Positions 4,273-11,527 of a stretch of 11,598 bases of DNA are shown piece after piece. The notes below the pieces were generated by a model. That model did not search any database and was not told the DNA's origin. It worked only from the letters and a program-made list of their open reading frames with translations. Origin of the DNA: Candidatus Woesearchaeota archaeon (lineage in GTDB: Archaea; Nanobdellota; Nanobdellia; Woesearchaeales; ARS49). The stretch is from NCBI GenBank assembly GCA_016203425.1, contig JACQMU010000150.1:1-11598 (forward strand), in the 5' to 3' direction. A program made the translations under genes and the position numbers. Every line of letters begins with the position of its first letter. The stretch's first letter is position 1.

Positions 4273-4647
4273 TTATGATAACTTCGCCTGCACTTCTTCT
4301 TTCGGCGGTTCTTGCATACGTGTAGATTCATCCTGCTTATTCAGCTGGTCATACACGCGCACCAAAACACAAGCAAACAAATACCAGTACGCAACCATCA
4401 AGCAGAACAACAAAATTATTCCAAACTGAGAACCAAAAAAAGCCTTGATTGAAGCAGTGGCAAAAACAATCTTCATCGGCAAAGAAACAACAAGATCAAC
4501 AGCTGCAAGAAACATGTTAACAAAAAAAGGCACTTTCGCAGCAACACGCACGTGATTCAAGTAACCCAACAACCAGCGCGCAGCAACAAACAAAAAAACA
4601 ATGTACAACTTTTCTTTTGTTGCTGAAAAAAACGATTGAGATTCCAT
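4273..4647 (-). CDS. Small membrane protein with three predicted helices, 124 residues
   Basis: The frame reaches a GTG at 4695 that overlaps the upstream gene's TGA. However, a strong TATA box (CTTTATAAAC, minus, 4671-4680) lies inside that extension, about 27 bp before the ATG at 4647, so I take 4647 as the start. Residues 13-30, 40-64 and 75-97 are hydrophobic enough to span the membrane, with basic patches (HVRVAAK) between the first two. The C-terminal 25 residues are polar and acidic/basic mixed. No conserved motif or family is recognised. If translation also occurs from the GTG through read-through of the upstream gene, a longer 140-residue form is possible. Its stop codon is directly adjacent to that of the ligase on the other strand. 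Confidence 0.65.
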   Translation of the reverse strand: MESQSFFSATKEKLYIVFLFVAARWLLGYLNHVRVAAKVPFFVNMFLAAVDLVVSLPMKIVFATASIKAFFGSQFGIILLFCLMVAYWYLFACVLVRVYDQLNKQDESTRMQEPPKEEVQAKLS

Positions 4648-4670
4648 CACGACAGTTTTAATGAAGATGT

Positions 4671-4680
4671 TTATAAAGTT
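4671..4680 (-). promoter_or_regulatory. TATA box for the small membrane protein, lying beyond the 3' end of the upstream gene
   Basis: The minus strand reads CTTTATAAAC, centred about 28 bp before the ATG at 4647. It falls just after the stop codon of the 355-residue gene, so the membrane protein can be transcribed independently and leaderlessly. Confidence 0.5.
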
Positions 4681-4691
4681 ATTGATAACTG

Positions 4692-5759
4692 TCACTGCTG
4701 AGAATACATCTTTCTTATCTTTTGCAAAAAATCACGACGCAGCTGGCTTCCATCAACAAGTGCACTAACCCTGGACAAGAATTCAAACGGGTCTGGAAGA
4801 ACTTCAATAACCTTAAAAACAAAATCCTCACGGTCTCCCCAACTGCACTTGTCAGATAAGTCCTTCGCAAGAGCATCACGCACAACATCATTCTTTGCAA
4901 GATACTGCGCAACAAAAGGCTCCTGCAAACGCGCTTTATAATCTTTTGAGTGTTCTCCATCAAAACGAGGCAAACCTGGATAATCATCATCAAACCCCTG
5001 CAGCGTTACTGTTTCCAAAACATAAGGCACCAAAAGCTCAGCAACAACACCCTCAGAAATTCCAACCTTAGACTTTTCACAGTCAATCAATTCAACAAAA
5101 CGAACATAATTATCAATAGTTTTGTCAGACAACCAACAAAGATAAGGCTTAGAACAATAATTTACACAGTATAATTCAAAACCCTTCGGAACAAACGATA
5201 CAGAAATGTCATCCAGATGATTATCAAGAACATCAGAAACCACAACGTATGCAACACCGTTATTAAGCCCTGGCGACAAATCAGGCAACAGCTCCCACAA
5301 ACGACCATTATTCAAACGCTTTCTAAACTCTTCATCAACAAAACCCTTAAACAAAGAATCAGGCTTTTCAACAAGCTCACGATACAAAATCTTGTGACCT
5401 CTTGTAGAGCCAGGCCAGCCAGTCCTCAAAGGAGCAAGCAAAGCTTCATTCACACAAATGTTCAACAAATCTTCAAGCTCAGACTCAGTGAAAAATTCCT
5501 TTGCCCAAACACGCGCCAACTGCATTTTTTCAGGACTATCAGGATTCGAGTGGTTATAACAGCCGTCCACCAAACTCAAAACACCCCAAAAACGAGTGTT
5601 AGCCAAATCCTGAAAAAGAAGATTAAGACGGTCAGACTTTTTGTCAGAATGCTTTTTCAAATACTCTTCCTTAAACTCATAAGCACGCTTCACAATCTCA
5701 CCACATGATTGCGGCTTCTTCGCAACATCCTCTGGAAGAAAATTAAGTCTGTAATCCAT
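4692..5759 (-). CDS. Unknown soluble protein, 355 residues
   Basis: The ATG at 5759 is supported by a TATA box (CTTATAAATA, minus, 5781-5790) centred 26 bp upstream, the leaderless spacing seen elsewhere here. The protein is acidic and mostly helical, with no signal peptide and no membrane segment. Notable stretches are an early Lys/Glu helix (residues 20-42), FWGVLSLVDGCYNHSNPDSPEKM (57-79), a Gly-rich loop RTGWPGSTRGHK (112-123) and a repeated 'VLPDPFEFLSRV' style helix near the C-terminus. I see no nucleotide-binding P-loop and no metal motif that would assign a function. Several residues (scattered Cys and Trp) suggest a folded globular protein, not a chance frame. It is transcribed divergently from the antitoxin-like mini-gene. 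Confidence 0.68.
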   Translation of the reverse strand: MDYRLNFLPEDVAKKPQSCGEIVKRAYEFKEEYLKKHSDKKSDRLNLLFQDLANTRFWGVLSLVDGCYNHSNPDSPEKMQLARVWAKEFFTESELEDLLNICVNEALLAPLRTGWPGSTRGHKILYRELVEKPDSLFKGFVDEEFRKRLNNGRLWELLPDLSPGLNNGVAYVVVSDVLDNHLDDISVSFVPKGFELYCVNYCSKPYLCWLSDKTIDNYVRFVELIDCEKSKVGISEGVVAELLVPYVLETVTLQGFDDDYPGLPRFDGEHSKDYKARLQEPFVAQYLAKNDVVRDALAKDLSDKCSWGDREDFVFKVIEVLPDPFEFLSRVSALVDGSQLRRDFLQKIRKMYSQQ

Positions 5760-7816: not shown

Positions 7817-7827
7817 ATTTATATATG
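7817..7827 (+). promoter_or_regulatory. TATA box for the FecR/cyclase cassette
   Basis: ATTTATATATG is centred about 26 bp before the ATG at 7848, again indicating a leaderless transcript. Confidence 0.55.
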
Positions 7828-7847: not shown

Positions 7848-8654
7848 ATGCTCAAAAAAATTCTTGGCAGCATATTGTTCATCTTTATACTAATTGCTGG
7901 GGGAATAGCATACTCACTATTTTCGTCATCAACTGAAGCTGCACAACTCCACATTGAATCAGGCACAGTCACTGTAAACGGAAACACTGTAACAAACGAC
8001 CAAACATTATCATCAAAAGATGTGATTGAAACAACAAACGGAAAAGCAACAGTCATACTTCATGACAGCATAATTATCAGCCTCGAACCAAACACAAAAA
8101 TCACCCTCGACAGCCTCACACGCAAAAATCCAGTTGTAAGCCAGCCAACAGGCACAACATGGAACACTTTTATGAAACTAACTGGCGTCGATGGATTTGA
8201 CATCAAAACAAGCAACAGCATTGCATCAGTCAGAGGCACAGGATTCCAGCTCACTGACAAAAAAGTACTCACCGCAGACGGCACTGTAACGTACAATGAT
8301 GCGGGCAAAACATTCACAGTCACAGAAATGACAGCTGTTGAACAAGGACTACAACGGCCAGCAAACAATGAAGAAAAAACATCTGTTAAAAACTACTACC
8401 GCCAAACTGTCAACGAACTAAAACGCATGCGCAAAACAGAAATGAACAAACACCAATTTCTGATGAGAATGATTAAAACACAGTACGGAATGAGCGACGA
8501 CATGATTAATAAAAAAATGGATGAAATAGACACAGGCACAATAAATGTTGACGACATTATGCGCCAAGCACCAGTTACGCCAGCATCACTTAACAAACTT
8601 GCAATGATGACAAAAGAAATTCAAAACCTCAACCAGAAACTTGCACGAATGTAA
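7848..8654 (+). CDS. Membrane-anchored FecR-domain protein 1, 268 residues
   Basis: Residues 5-25 form one uncleaved membrane anchor (ILGSILFIFILIAGGIAYSLF). Residues 32-165 form a FecR domain: an SGTVTVNG strand, then VIETTNGKATVIL, DSIIISLEPNTKITLDSL and the closing SIASVRGTGFQL (124-135). FecR domains are beta-rich and lie outside the cytoplasmic membrane. In the classical Fec system FecR relays signal to a sigma factor, but archaea have none, and here the output is likely the cyclase downstream. After the domain comes a Met/Lys-rich helical tail (about 175-268, including RMRKTEMNKHQF and MTKEIQNLNQKL) that could form coiled coil. It is a clear paralogue of the next gene, sharing GTTWN, DGF and ASVRGT at the same places. 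The start is fixed by the TATA box at 7817-7827. Confidence 0.85.
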   Translation: MLKKILGSILFIFILIAGGIAYSLFSSSTEAAQLHIESGTVTVNGNTVTNDQTLSSKDVIETTNGKATVILHDSIIISLEPNTKITLDSLTRKNPVVSQPTGTTWNTFMKLTGVDGFDIKTSNSIASVRGTGFQLTDKKVLTADGTVTYNDAGKTFTVTEMTAVEQGLQRPANNEEKTSVKNYYRQTVNELKRMRKTEMNKHQFLMRMIKTQYGMSDDMINKKMDEIDTGTINVDDIMRQAPVTPASLNKLAMMTKEIQNLNQKLARM

Positions 8655-8667
8655 GTTCTCACACAGA

Positions 8668-8675
8668 TTAATAAA
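8668..8675 (+). promoter_or_regulatory. Internal TATA box ahead of FecR gene 2 and the cyclase
   Basis: TTAATAAA is centred about 26 bp before the ATG at 8697. It allows the second FecR gene and cyclase to be transcribed separately from the first FecR gene, and it favours ATG 8697 over the in-frame GTG at 8679. Confidence 0.4.
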
Positions 8676-8696
8676 GACGTGCAAACAAACAACAAC

Positions 8697-9665
8697 ATGA
8701 ATAGCACAACTTCATTTTCACGACAAACCGTGATAATTATTACAGCAATACTCATAATCCTGTTCTACATCCTGTTCAAAGAGATTACCATCACACAGCC
8801 TACCGCAAAACTTTATCTTGAAAACAGCACAGCAATTGTAAACGGCAAACCAGCACGTGATGCACAACCACTAACGCAATCAGATGTTATAGAAACAAAA
8901 GACGGCACTGCAACAGTCGTCTTGTACGATAGCATCATCATAACACTCCAACAAAACACCACAGTAACACTAAGCAACCTGTCCAAAAACCACCCGATTG
9001 TCAAACAAACAGGCACCACGTGGAACAAATTCCTGACTGTCACAGGCATTGACGGCTTCACTGTGCACACCAGCACCAGCGTTGCATCAGTCAGAGGCAC
9101 TGCATTTGAACTAAACGACGACCACCTCATAGTTGGCGAGGGCGAAGTAAGCTACACACGCGACGAACAAACAATTCTCGTCCAAGAACTAACAATTGTA
9201 GAAAAACAAAACAACAAACTCATCAAACGTGCTCTGCGCTCTGACGAACTCACCCGCATAAAAAAACACACCCAAAGAACCATCAACATAATTGAACGAA
9301 GCATAGCAAAAGAACAGAAAAAAGTCGATAAATTAAAAGAAAGATTAAAACAAATTGAAGAAAAAGAACACACATCCATCACTGAAGAAAAAAACACGCG
9401 AACTGTTAAACAAGAAAACAACAAACCACGCATCAGAGAACAAGATGCAAAAACAATTGCGTACCTCAAAAAAACATACAGGCTCACTGACGCCCATTTA
9501 TCAAGAATATTTGCAGCACAAAAAGCAGCAAGCAGAGTTTCAAAACGCACAACAACCACTCAATCAATCCAGACAAAAACAACCACACTTGAACAACCGC
9601 GTGCCTCACAAAACCATCGCGGCGCAAGCAAAAACACTGGCGGAGATGCTGGCGGAAAAAAATGA
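8697..9665 (+). CDS. Membrane-anchored FecR-domain protein 2, 322 residues
   Basis: The in-frame GTG at 8679 would add six residues, but the TATA box at 8668-8675 is only a few bases from it and 26 bp from ATG 8697, so I use 8697. Residues 11-26 are one membrane anchor (TVIIITAILIILFYILF). Residues 37-169 are a FecR domain with VIETKDGTATVVL, DSIIITL, TGTTWNKF and SVASVRGTAFEL (117-128 region). The C-terminal half differs from protein 1. It has a Lys/Glu-rich coiled coil (about 190-235, KEQKKVDKLKERLKQIEEK), a helical patch similar to the paralogue's tail (IAYLKKTYRLTDAHLSRIF), and a Thr/Gln/Gly-rich disordered end. The protein should be anchored with its FecR domain and coiled coil outside the cell membrane. 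Its TGA overlaps the cyclase ATG by four bases (ATGA), so the two are translationally coupled and probably form one complex. Confidence 0.85.
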   Translation: MNSTTSFSRQTVIIITAILIILFYILFKEITITQPTAKLYLENSTAIVNGKPARDAQPLTQSDVIETKDGTATVVLYDSIIITLQQNTTVTLSNLSKNHPIVKQTGTTWNKFLTVTGIDGFTVHTSTSVASVRGTAFELNDDHLIVGEGEVSYTRDEQTILVQELTIVEKQNNKLIKRALRSDELTRIKKHTQRTINIIERSIAKEQKKVDKLKERLKQIEEKEHTSITEEKNTRTVKQENNKPRIREQDAKTIAYLKKTYRLTDAHLSRIFAAQKAASRVSKRTTTTQSIQTKTTTLEQPRASQNHRGASKNTGGDAGGKK

Positions 9666-11527
9666 ATTCAAAAACAACAAAAATAACAACATTTACGATT
9701 CTTTTTATTATATTCAGCACATTTATTTTGCTCAATGCGTTCTCCCACATCAGAGCAACGCTGACAGACAGATTGTACAGTGACAAACCAGTGCTTGACA
9801 ACATAATAATAATTGCAATTGACGACTACAGCATACAAAAGATTGGGCGATGGCCTTGGAACAGAATTGTTTTTTCAGAAATAATTGAAAAAATAAAAGA
9901 AGCAAAAGCTGTTGGCATTGATGTTTCATTCTTTGAACACAGCAGTTCAGACACACAACTTTCAGCAACACTCAAAAAAAACAACAACCTTGTTCTCGCA
10001 GCAGAAATCAACCACGACAAACACTATCAACCAATTTTTAACACGACCTCTGGATTTGCAAACCTACTGACAGACAGCGATGGCGTAACACGACACGTGG
10101 CACTAACAAGAATTCAAGACACTTTGCCATTTGCATTTATGATTTTCCAAAAAAGCTGGAATCCTGCTGCAGAAATACCTGACAAGATTGCAACCATCAA
10201 TTTTGCAGCACCGCCAGAAAGCTTCACAACATACTCATTTGCAGACGTACTTCAAAACAACTACAACTTCAGCAACAAAATTATTCTCATAGGCGCAACA
10301 GCACCAGACTTACACGACACTTACTTTGTACCAACATCACGAGGAACAGCAATGAGTGGTGTTGAAATACACGCAACAATAATCCAAAACCTAATACGCA
10401 ACGATTTCCTAACAAACCAAAGCAGACCCGGCATAACCATTCTTGTTTTAATTGCAGGTGTCCTTGGAATGTTCATAATCTCACGACTAAAGATACAGCA
10501 CGCATTACCAACCATCCTGAGCACATTAGCAATATATGCAATCACCAGCATAATGCTTGCAAACAACACAAACTATCATTTAGACTTATTTTATGCACCA
10601 CTTGCACTCATCATCTTCACCAGCTGCGGAACAAGCATCCACTACTTCAACGAAAAACAAGAAAACAAATACCTCACAAATGCATTCGGCAAATACATAA
10701 GCCACGACCTGCTCAACCAGATTGTAGCACACAAACACAACCTCAACCTCGGCGGCATAAAAACCACAGTCACACTTTTCTTCTCAGACATCAGAGGATT
10801 CACAACAATCTCAGAAAAACTCGGGCCGGAACAACTCGTCACATTACTCAACGAATACTTAACTGCAATGACCACAATTATTTTAGACCATCACGGCACG
10901 CTCGACAAATTCATAGGAGACGCAATAATGGCATTCTGGAACGCACCATTGCCAGAACCAAACCATACAAAACTTGCCTGCACAGCAGCCGTTGCTCAAG
11001 TAAAAGCACTCAAACAATTACAACCACAATGGGCAGCCAGAGGCTATCCAACAATCGACATCGGCTGCGGACTCAATACTGGTGAGGCAGTCATCGGCAA
11101 CATGGGAAGCACAGACAGATTTGACTACACAGCAATGGGCGACACAGTCAACCTTGCCTCGCGCCTAGAAAGCCTAACCAAAACATACGGCGTCCACATA
11201 ATTATTTCAGAAACAACACACGCATTAGTTAAAGACAACTTCAAATGCAGAAAACTCGACGCAGTAAAAGTCAAAGGCAAAAAAATACCAGTAACAATTT
11301 ATGAATTATGCATTGATTACGACGAAAAATTTGTCGAAAAATATGAAGAAGCACTACAAAAATACTTCAAAAGAAACTTCAAAGAATCACTAACAATGTT
11401 CACCAACCTGCTAAAAACAAAAGAAAACAGCACATCCTGCAAACTATTCATTGAAAGATGCGAACACTTCATCACAGAACCACCAACAGACGACTGGGAT
11501 GGCTCATACGAGATGAAAACAAAATAA
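9662..11527 (+). CDS. CHASE2-transmembrane class III adenylate cyclase, 621 residues
   Basis: It should convert ATP to cAMP in response to an extracytoplasmic signal. Residues 11-27 are a first membrane span. Residues 30-253 are the extracytoplasmic CHASE2 sensor, with IIIIAIDDYSIQKIGRWPW at 48-66, GIDVSFFE and the closing KIILIGATAPDLHDTY. Spans at 257-274, 281-299 and 307-327 are followed by the cyclase domain (about 368-548). All catalytic residues are present: metal-binding Asp376 (FFSDIRGF) and Asp420 (KFIGDAIM), base-recognising Lys416 and Thr490 (DYTAMGD), and transition-state Asn497 and Arg501 (VNLASRLE). Thr instead of Asp at 490 is the class IIIb signature and favours ATP over GTP. 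Residues 555-602 form a TPR-like tail ending in a PP..DWDG motif (607-613), which from memory is typical of bacterial CHASE2 cyclases. It works as a homodimer. The ATGA overlap couples it to FecR gene 2. Confidence 0.95.
   Translation: MNSKTTKITTFTILFIIFSTFILLNAFSHIRATLTDRLYSDKPVLDNIIIIAIDDYSIQKIGRWPWNRIVFSEIIEKIKEAKAVGIDVSFFEHSSSDTQLSATLKKNNNLVLAAEINHDKHYQPIFNTTSGFANLLTDSDGVTRHVALTRIQDTLPFAFMIFQKSWNPAAEIPDKIATINFAAPPESFTTYSFADVLQNNYNFSNKIILIGATAPDLHDTYFVPTSRGTAMSGVEIHATIIQNLIRNDFLTNQSRPGITILVLIAGVLGMFIISRLKIQHALPTILSTLAIYAITSIMLANNTNYHLDLFYAPLALIIFTSCGTSIHYFNEKQENKYLTNAFGKYISHDLLNQIVAHKHNLNLGGIKTTVTLFFSDIRGFTTISEKLGPEQLVTLLNEYLTAMTTIILDHHGTLDKFIGDAIMAFWNAPLPEPNHTKLACTAAVAQVKALKQLQPQWAARGYPTIDIGCGLNTGEAVIGNMGSTDRFDYTAMGDTVNLASRLESLTKTYGVHIIISETTHALVKDNFKCRKLDAVKVKGKKIPVTIYELCIDYDEKFVEKYEEALQKYFKRNFKESLTMFTNLLKTKENSTSCKLFIERCEHFITEPPTDDWDGSYEMKTK

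Follow-up and report, generated by a model that had tools for sequence, protein, structure and literature searches.

FecR-domain proteins are encoded beside CHASE2 sensors in several bacteria. A gene cluster of Campylobacterota, for which horizontal movement has been reported, combines FecR and a CHASE2 class III adenylate cyclase with a phosphodiesterase (PDE) and a TPR protein (PMC9239204), and a Burkholderia operon encodes a LysM-FecR protein and a CHASE2 histidine kinase (BiofilmReg; PMC5192318). In the CyaD1/CyaD2/CyaK-NsrA-Clr system of Sinorhizobium meliloti, CHASE2 cyclases answer an outside protein signal via an outer-membrane protein (PMC7529298, PMC13001267), and CyaD1 without its CHASE2 domain makes cyclic AMP (cAMP) constitutively (PMC5498481). 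A CHASE2 cyclase gene also follows that of MtxA in magnetotactic bacteria (PMC4439547). CHASE2 as such is already known from archaea, in the CHASE_2-histidine kinases of ammonia oxidisers (PMC11442133). Of the cyclases predicted in archaea, very few belong to class III, and the route by which most archaea make cAMP is probably one not yet known (PMC8646023). Here we describe a cassette of two FecR genes and a CHASE2 class III cyclase gene in a Candidatus Woesearchaeota archaeon, on a stretch of 11,598 nucleotides (the window) that is the entire contig JACQMU010000150.1 of an 865-kb assembly, 82.5% complete. We consider it fairly probable that the cassette is an extracytoplasmic FecR/CHASE2 switch on an adenylate cyclase, that is, a surface sensor with cAMP output, of bacterial origin, with an archaeal promoter and with a receptor other than a recognisable cyclic-nucleotide-binding (CNB) protein.

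The genes lie on the + strand. FecR1 (7848..8654) encodes 268 amino acids (aa) from an ATG; FecR2 (8679..9665) encodes 328 aa from a GTG, with an in-frame ATG at 8697 as an alternative start; and the cyclase gene (9662..11527), which overlaps FecR2 by 4 bases, encodes 621 aa with CHASE2, three transmembrane (TM) helices and a class III catalytic domain. This arrangement, two single-span FecR genes followed by a CHASE2-TM-cyclase gene with a 4-base overlap, had been proposed in the first-pass annotation and was confirmed by the reading frames and Pfam. The extracytoplasmic CHASE2 sensor domain occupies residues 21-267 (9722..10462, +; PF05226, 159 bits) and the catalytic domain residues 369-542 (10766..11287, +; Guanylate_cyc PF00211, 93.8 bits against a cut-off of 21.9). 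In the structural model, an N-terminal helix (2-23) precedes CHASE2 and helices at 255-275, 278-303 and 311-342 follow it, the layout of a CHASE2 receptor cyclase, with an N-terminal TM segment, CHASE2, TM helices and a cytoplasmic output; a simple hydropathy scan found three segments only (8-26, 258-276 and 281-299).

The catalytic domain contains the full set of catalytic residues: two metal-binding aspartates, an adenine-selecting lysine with its Asp/Thr partner, and the transition-state asparagine and arginine. We take these roles to be filled by D376, D420, K416, T490, N497 and R501, the threonine presumably marking class IIIb. All six are invariant in the archaeal copies wherever the column is present and the domain complete. 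The cyclase matched 3r5g_A at 3e-41, and with the whole protein as Foldseek query, the best 50 matches listed were to catalytic domains. The catalytic domains of Pseudomonas aeruginosa CyaB and Spirulina CyaC (3r5g, 1wc0/1wc1) are among the closest solved class III ones, the comparison covering the catalytic part. The product is predicted from these residues to be cAMP, made from ATP; public databases name the Woesearchaeota cyclase an "adenylate/guanylate cyclase domain-containing protein".

Both FecR proteins scored slightly over the Pfam cut-off of 24 for PF04773 (28.2 bits for FecR1, 28.8 for FecR2) and show the FecR fold, which places them in the FecR domain family. Each has a single hydrophobic segment, at residues 5-23 in FecR1 and 18-36 in FecR2. 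FecR1 consists of an N-terminal TM helix (2-25), an extracytoplasmic beta FecR domain (32-171) and a helical C-terminal part (174-267), and FecR2 ends in a charged C-terminal tail. An outer membrane is not expected in an archaeon. Like the cassette, the Campylobacterota cluster places FecR next to a class III adenylate cyclase with CHASE2, but its FecR is described as an outer-membrane protein and PDE and TPR genes accompany it (PMC9239204); here a single-span FecR and the cyclase form a bare pair. The Burkholderia operon likewise has FecR directly upstream of a CHASE2 sensor; its output, however, is a phosphorelay and its FecR carries LysM, which was not detected here (PMC5192318). In S. meliloti, which also has CHASE2 receptor cyclases, the FecR gene SMc02177 adjoins cyaD1 (SMc02176) by locus number, but there a beta-barrel of the outer membrane lets the signal in and a regulator of the CRP type reads it, whereas the search for CNB proteins in the window's genome found none.

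In contrast to the anti-sigma FecR/PupR cell-surface regulators, neither cassette FecR has a cytoplasmic sigma-binding N-terminal domain, the TM segment beginning at residue 2-5 in FecR1 and at about 18 in FecR2, and no second Pfam family was found in either protein at E 1e-3. The suggestion that these proteins work without a sigma factor thus fits the lack of space for such a domain and of a second family, but the idea is not new, since FecR proteins with CHASE2 sensors have already been described in bacteria (PMC9239204, PMC5192318).

FecR and CHASE2 are tightly associated across the archaeal phylum. CHASE2 occurred in 23 of 279 phylum genomes, in every case in a protein with a class III cyclase domain, and in 19 of 57 near relatives, including 15 of the 26 genomes sampled from the window's own family. 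PF04773 was present in 21 of the 23 CHASE2 genomes vs. 12 of the 256 others (Fisher p = 4e-21, indicative only because the genomes are related), and in all 21 one FecR match sits just upstream of the cyclase. As for the two CHASE2 genomes that PF04773 missed, one (G203) has a FecR by a profile trained on DPANN sequences (L022/L144), and in the other (G049) the cyclase probably lies on a bacterial contig. Counted by locus, FecR adjoins the cyclase at 32 of 33 distinct archaeal-assigned loci (the window and 31 further). Duplicates (L028, L110, L137, L138 and L144) were dropped before counting: L111/L028, L144/L022, L138/L024 and L137/L027 are the same loci, and L110 is a near copy of L111 from the same genus. 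The gap between the two genes was -29 to +32 nt in the 22 loci measured, with starts taken from the longest frames. A distance test was run without FecR2 and without the second FecR at L111. The FecR-CHASE2 linkage for which a neighbourhood survey had been suggested is thus present in these genomes.

Beyond the pair, the gene neighbourhoods mostly have little in common. No third gene cluster was shared by more than 4 of 32 loci, and of the 102 genes closest to the pair at these loci, no Pfam family matched more than 2, so we rejected a conserved neighbour as effector. No PDE or TPR family recurred beside the pair in the same 102 genes (upstream genes were missing at 4 of the 32 loci and downstream genes at 6, including the window; PDE genes elsewhere in the genomes were not searched for). 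A single FecR accompanies the cyclase at 30 of the 32 distinct linked loci, and a tandem pair occurs, among these loci, only in the window and in genus g12 (G011, G022). FecR2 falls with FecR1 in one seven-row clade (99 by SH-aLRT, the Shimodaira-Hasegawa-like approximate likelihood-ratio test), on a long branch. Because the two share this clade, and because most linked loci have one FecR, FecR2 is probably a local, lineage-specific duplicate.

The first-pass annotation had regarded class III cyclases as uncommon in archaea; in this phylum they are not rare, being present in 55 of 279 genomes, and many of these cyclases are proteins of about 220 aa without CHASE2. In alphaproteobacteria (L080:4445-9706, L069, L073, L093 and L094), very large proteins of about 1600-2100 aa can carry the FecR domain that lies upstream of a CHASE2 cyclase, and the large protein of L080 also has cadherin-like and RTX repeats; 3 of 89 upstream proteins were excluded from the Pfam scan for size.

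It had further been proposed that all three genes lie behind archaeal TATA boxes. FecR1 does have a clear box, TTTATATA (7818..7825, +), which starts 30 nt before the ATG, a spacing of the leaderless type. Upstream of FecR2 there is a weak AT-rich stretch only, and the cyclase start falls within the FecR2 gene. When we looked for TATA matches of at least 7/8 positions located 22-36 nt before a start, 11 of 32 loci had one, whereas mononucleotide shuffling predicted 1.5; real and shuffled loci alike were allowed alternative starts. Given the FecR1 box and this excess, the cassette is probably transcribed from archaeal promoters, perhaps as a leaderless mRNA.

To place the cyclase we built trees with 46 and then 20 of the 70 bacterial loci that had a cyclase frame; the latter, the careful tree, is an unrooted tree of 52 cyclases with bacteria picked by similarity to the window. 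The 32 DPANN copies group together, with a long-branched Paenibacillus sequence inside (91/97). Their neighbours are four Gracilibacteria/Peregrinibacteria-type sequences (92/95), and three more sequences of the candidate phyla radiation (CPR) lie nearby. Starred branches of the free tree place Paenibacillus within the DPANN group, but the approximately unbiased (AU) test did not reject a single DPANN clade (p = 0.234) or a clade of DPANN and all seven CPR sequences (p = 0.163). Members of family f1 are scattered across the tree, a pattern that would suit either transfer within DPANN or ancient duplication with loss. Relatives of the cyclase occur in many bacterial phyla; of 8000 candidates scored, 6721 were homologues at E <= 1e-60. 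An old acquisition from bacteria is likely on this evidence; it is not proven, given the missing root and the similarity-based choice of bacteria. The proposal that the cassette came from bacteria therefore stands as to ancestry, the clade lying next to CPR, but not as a private event of this genome, since the cassette is old, patchy and shared by 15 of the 26 sampled family members.

The FecR-cyclase pair itself is also found in three CPR genomes (L035, L038 and L042). In Paenibacillus whitsoniae (L049:10001-12851), a FecR gene comes directly after the DPANN-clade cyclase and matches the DPANN-derived FecR profile with an E-value of 6e-54. These CPR genomes and Paenibacillus represent organisms not known to have an outer membrane. 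No FecR gene adjoined the cyclase in L029-L033 on the DNA examined; FecR domains were present elsewhere in the four of these genomes that were searched (L029-L031 and L033), the L033 match being below the cut-off. A CHASE2-cyclase with 45% identity (P0095), on a 569-kb contig labelled Methanococcoides sp. SA1, reflects either a transfer into a methanogen or a DPANN contig that bears the wrong label.

We also searched for a protein that could read the cAMP. As suggested, the window's genome (G000) was examined for CNB domains: none was found by PF00027 or by a profile built from nine DPANN CNB proteins, although at 82.5% completeness this does not prove absence. The empty result with the DPANN-trained profile led us to reject a CNB protein too diverged for Pfam. 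CNB domains are rare in the phylum (8 of 279 genomes); two of the eight genomes carry a CHASE2 cyclase, and both of these have another class III cyclase too. No CNB domain was found in the 13 genomes whose sole class III cyclase is the CHASE2 one, which, given this rarity, is not a significant depletion. CNB presence was not significantly associated with the CHASE2 cyclase (2/23 vs. 6/256, p = 0.13), but the comparison for any class III cyclase gave p = 0.009 (5/55 vs. 3/224). In the near relatives, a CNB protein was present in 4 of 19 genomes with CHASE2 vs. 2 of 38 without it. None was seen in eight named DPANN carriers (four already in the phylum sample) or in four CPR carriers (L033, L035, L038 and L042); CNB proteins were present in all three of L029-L031 and in all ten other bacterial carriers.

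From this pattern we raise, tentatively and as a rather doubtful possibility, a CNB-free cAMP pathway in Woesearchaeota-like DPANN and some CPR, in which the reader would be a new receptor family or cAMP would act on the host, across the site of contact. The absence of CNB from the 13 sole-cyclase genomes and from the named DPANN and CPR carriers, set against the ten other bacteria and L029-L031, speaks for it; the general rarity of CNB and the four near-relative carriers that have one weaken it. At six loci (L120-L125, in G013, G018, G044, G019, G007 and G023), a stand-alone CNB gene of 157-160 aa overlaps the next gene, which encodes an AI-2E_transport (PF01594) permease, as checked with Pfam for three of the six. 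These genomes are five family members and G044, and four of the five also have the cyclase. The overlapping pair is possibly a cAMP-controlled transporter, and as such an output in that subset.

The surface-sensor reading draws on the genes and their linkage, the domain folds, the catalytic residues, the tree placement, the promoter motif and the lack of a CNB match, from which we infer the FecR-CHASE2 contact, the gating direction, the cAMP product, the cue and the receptor. One or both FecR proteins, anchored by a single N-terminal helix with the beta domain outside, would touch the CHASE2 domain of the cyclase, and FecR1, FecR2 and CHASE2 may form one complex. A cue outside the cell, whether the condition of its envelope or S-layer or the surface of a neighbour, would act on FecR/CHASE2 and alter the CHASE2 dimer; host recognition by DPANN is in general poorly known (PMC11329633). 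The change would pass via the three TM helices to the paired class III catalytic domains, which would convert ATP to 3',5'-cAMP. The gene set would have come from bacteria long ago, with CPR as nearest relatives, gained an archaeal promoter and stayed together in many Woesearchaeota-like DPANN, and the cAMP receptor in G000 would be something other than a recognisable CNB/CRP protein.

FecR could instead be an envelope or attachment protein that merely shares a promoter with a cyclase sensing alone through CHASE2. The 12 CHASE2-less genomes with FecR genes are consistent with this, as is FecR beside MacB-type ABC transporter genes: at L153:2734-8125, without a cyclase, and at L142:2346-7581, with one, the FecR gene comes after genes for an ABC ATPase and a MacB-type permease. 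The S. meliloti FecR protein SMc02177 is, moreover, dispensable for plant-signal perception, though the signal there can use several cyclases (PMC5498481). We nevertheless regard a bystander FecR as unlikely, as it adjoins the cyclase at 32 of 33 loci though the other neighbours mostly differ, and FecR pairs with CHASE2 even when the output is a histidine kinase (PMC5192318). The dispensability of SMc02177 also counts against the switch that we favour, and so do further observations. The four CPR cyclases nearest the archaeal clade (L029-L031 and L033) lack an adjacent FecR on the DNA examined, so that FecR and cyclase may have arrived separately; without a CNB protein the genome has no known means of reading cAMP; and since the contig stops 71 bases past the cyclase and the genome is incomplete, a downstream partner gene would escape notice here.

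As to bacterial origin, the cassette might instead be ancestral to these DPANN and lost from most lineages. It occurs in several families within the order, as well as in two others of the class that lie outside that order (f80 and f87), which would agree with such an origin, and the AU test allows a single DPANN clade. Its patchiness (23/279), the scatter of family f1 and the cyclase relatives in many bacterial phyla make this improbable in our judgement. That a bacterial contig had been binned into an archaeal metagenome-assembled genome (MAG) is far less credible still. One relative does look bacterial: locus L118 of G049 (G049:C66), which has a DUF4384 gene and a CHASE2-cyclase on a bacterial branch, is probably a contaminant contig in an archaeal MAG, and we excluded it from the careful tree but kept it in the counts of 23/279, 19/57 and 13 genomes. 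The window's genome, however, is in one family with G011, whose locus is that of Candidatus Woesearchaeota archaeon ETNP7_MAG_72. For further relatives the matching records bear the names Woesearchaeota, Pacearchaeota and Nanoarchaeota, and the host is on these grounds a DPANN archaeon. The same cassette is present on a single-contig genome of 736,702 bases (G087) and on contigs of 402 kb and 568 kb, which argues against a binning error; TATA placement is archaeal; the window encodes an ATP-dependent DNA ligase; and among the best 120 homologues listed, the 22 with an organism name are 21 archaea and one bacterium. We therefore rejected a chimera for the clade, in agreement with the original assignment of the cassette to an archaeal chromosome.

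Elsewhere the window encodes a tRNA-Arg, a protein with a sub-threshold DUF483 match, the DNA ligase, two unassigned proteins and an ABC exporter. The unassigned proteins (140 and 355 aa) come from overlapping genes at 4273-5759 (-), beside the MsbA-like exporter; neither Pfam nor NCBIfam gave a match for them at E 1e-3.

A literature search, with most subscription journals outside its reach, found no earlier description of a FecR-CHASE2 cyclase in archaea, and the bare two-gene pair of DPANN without a CNB reader is unusual. We consider it sound to view the cassette as the archaeal branch, itself conserved, of a sensing module known from bacteria; what surprises is its reach across DPANN and the missing receptor. 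Many DPANN thus have a class III enzyme that keeps every catalytic residue, with its sensor domain and its partner protein both defined. For the study of how cAMP is made and read in archaea, the cassette supplies a testable enzyme-partner pair and a pointer to the missing cAMP receptor.

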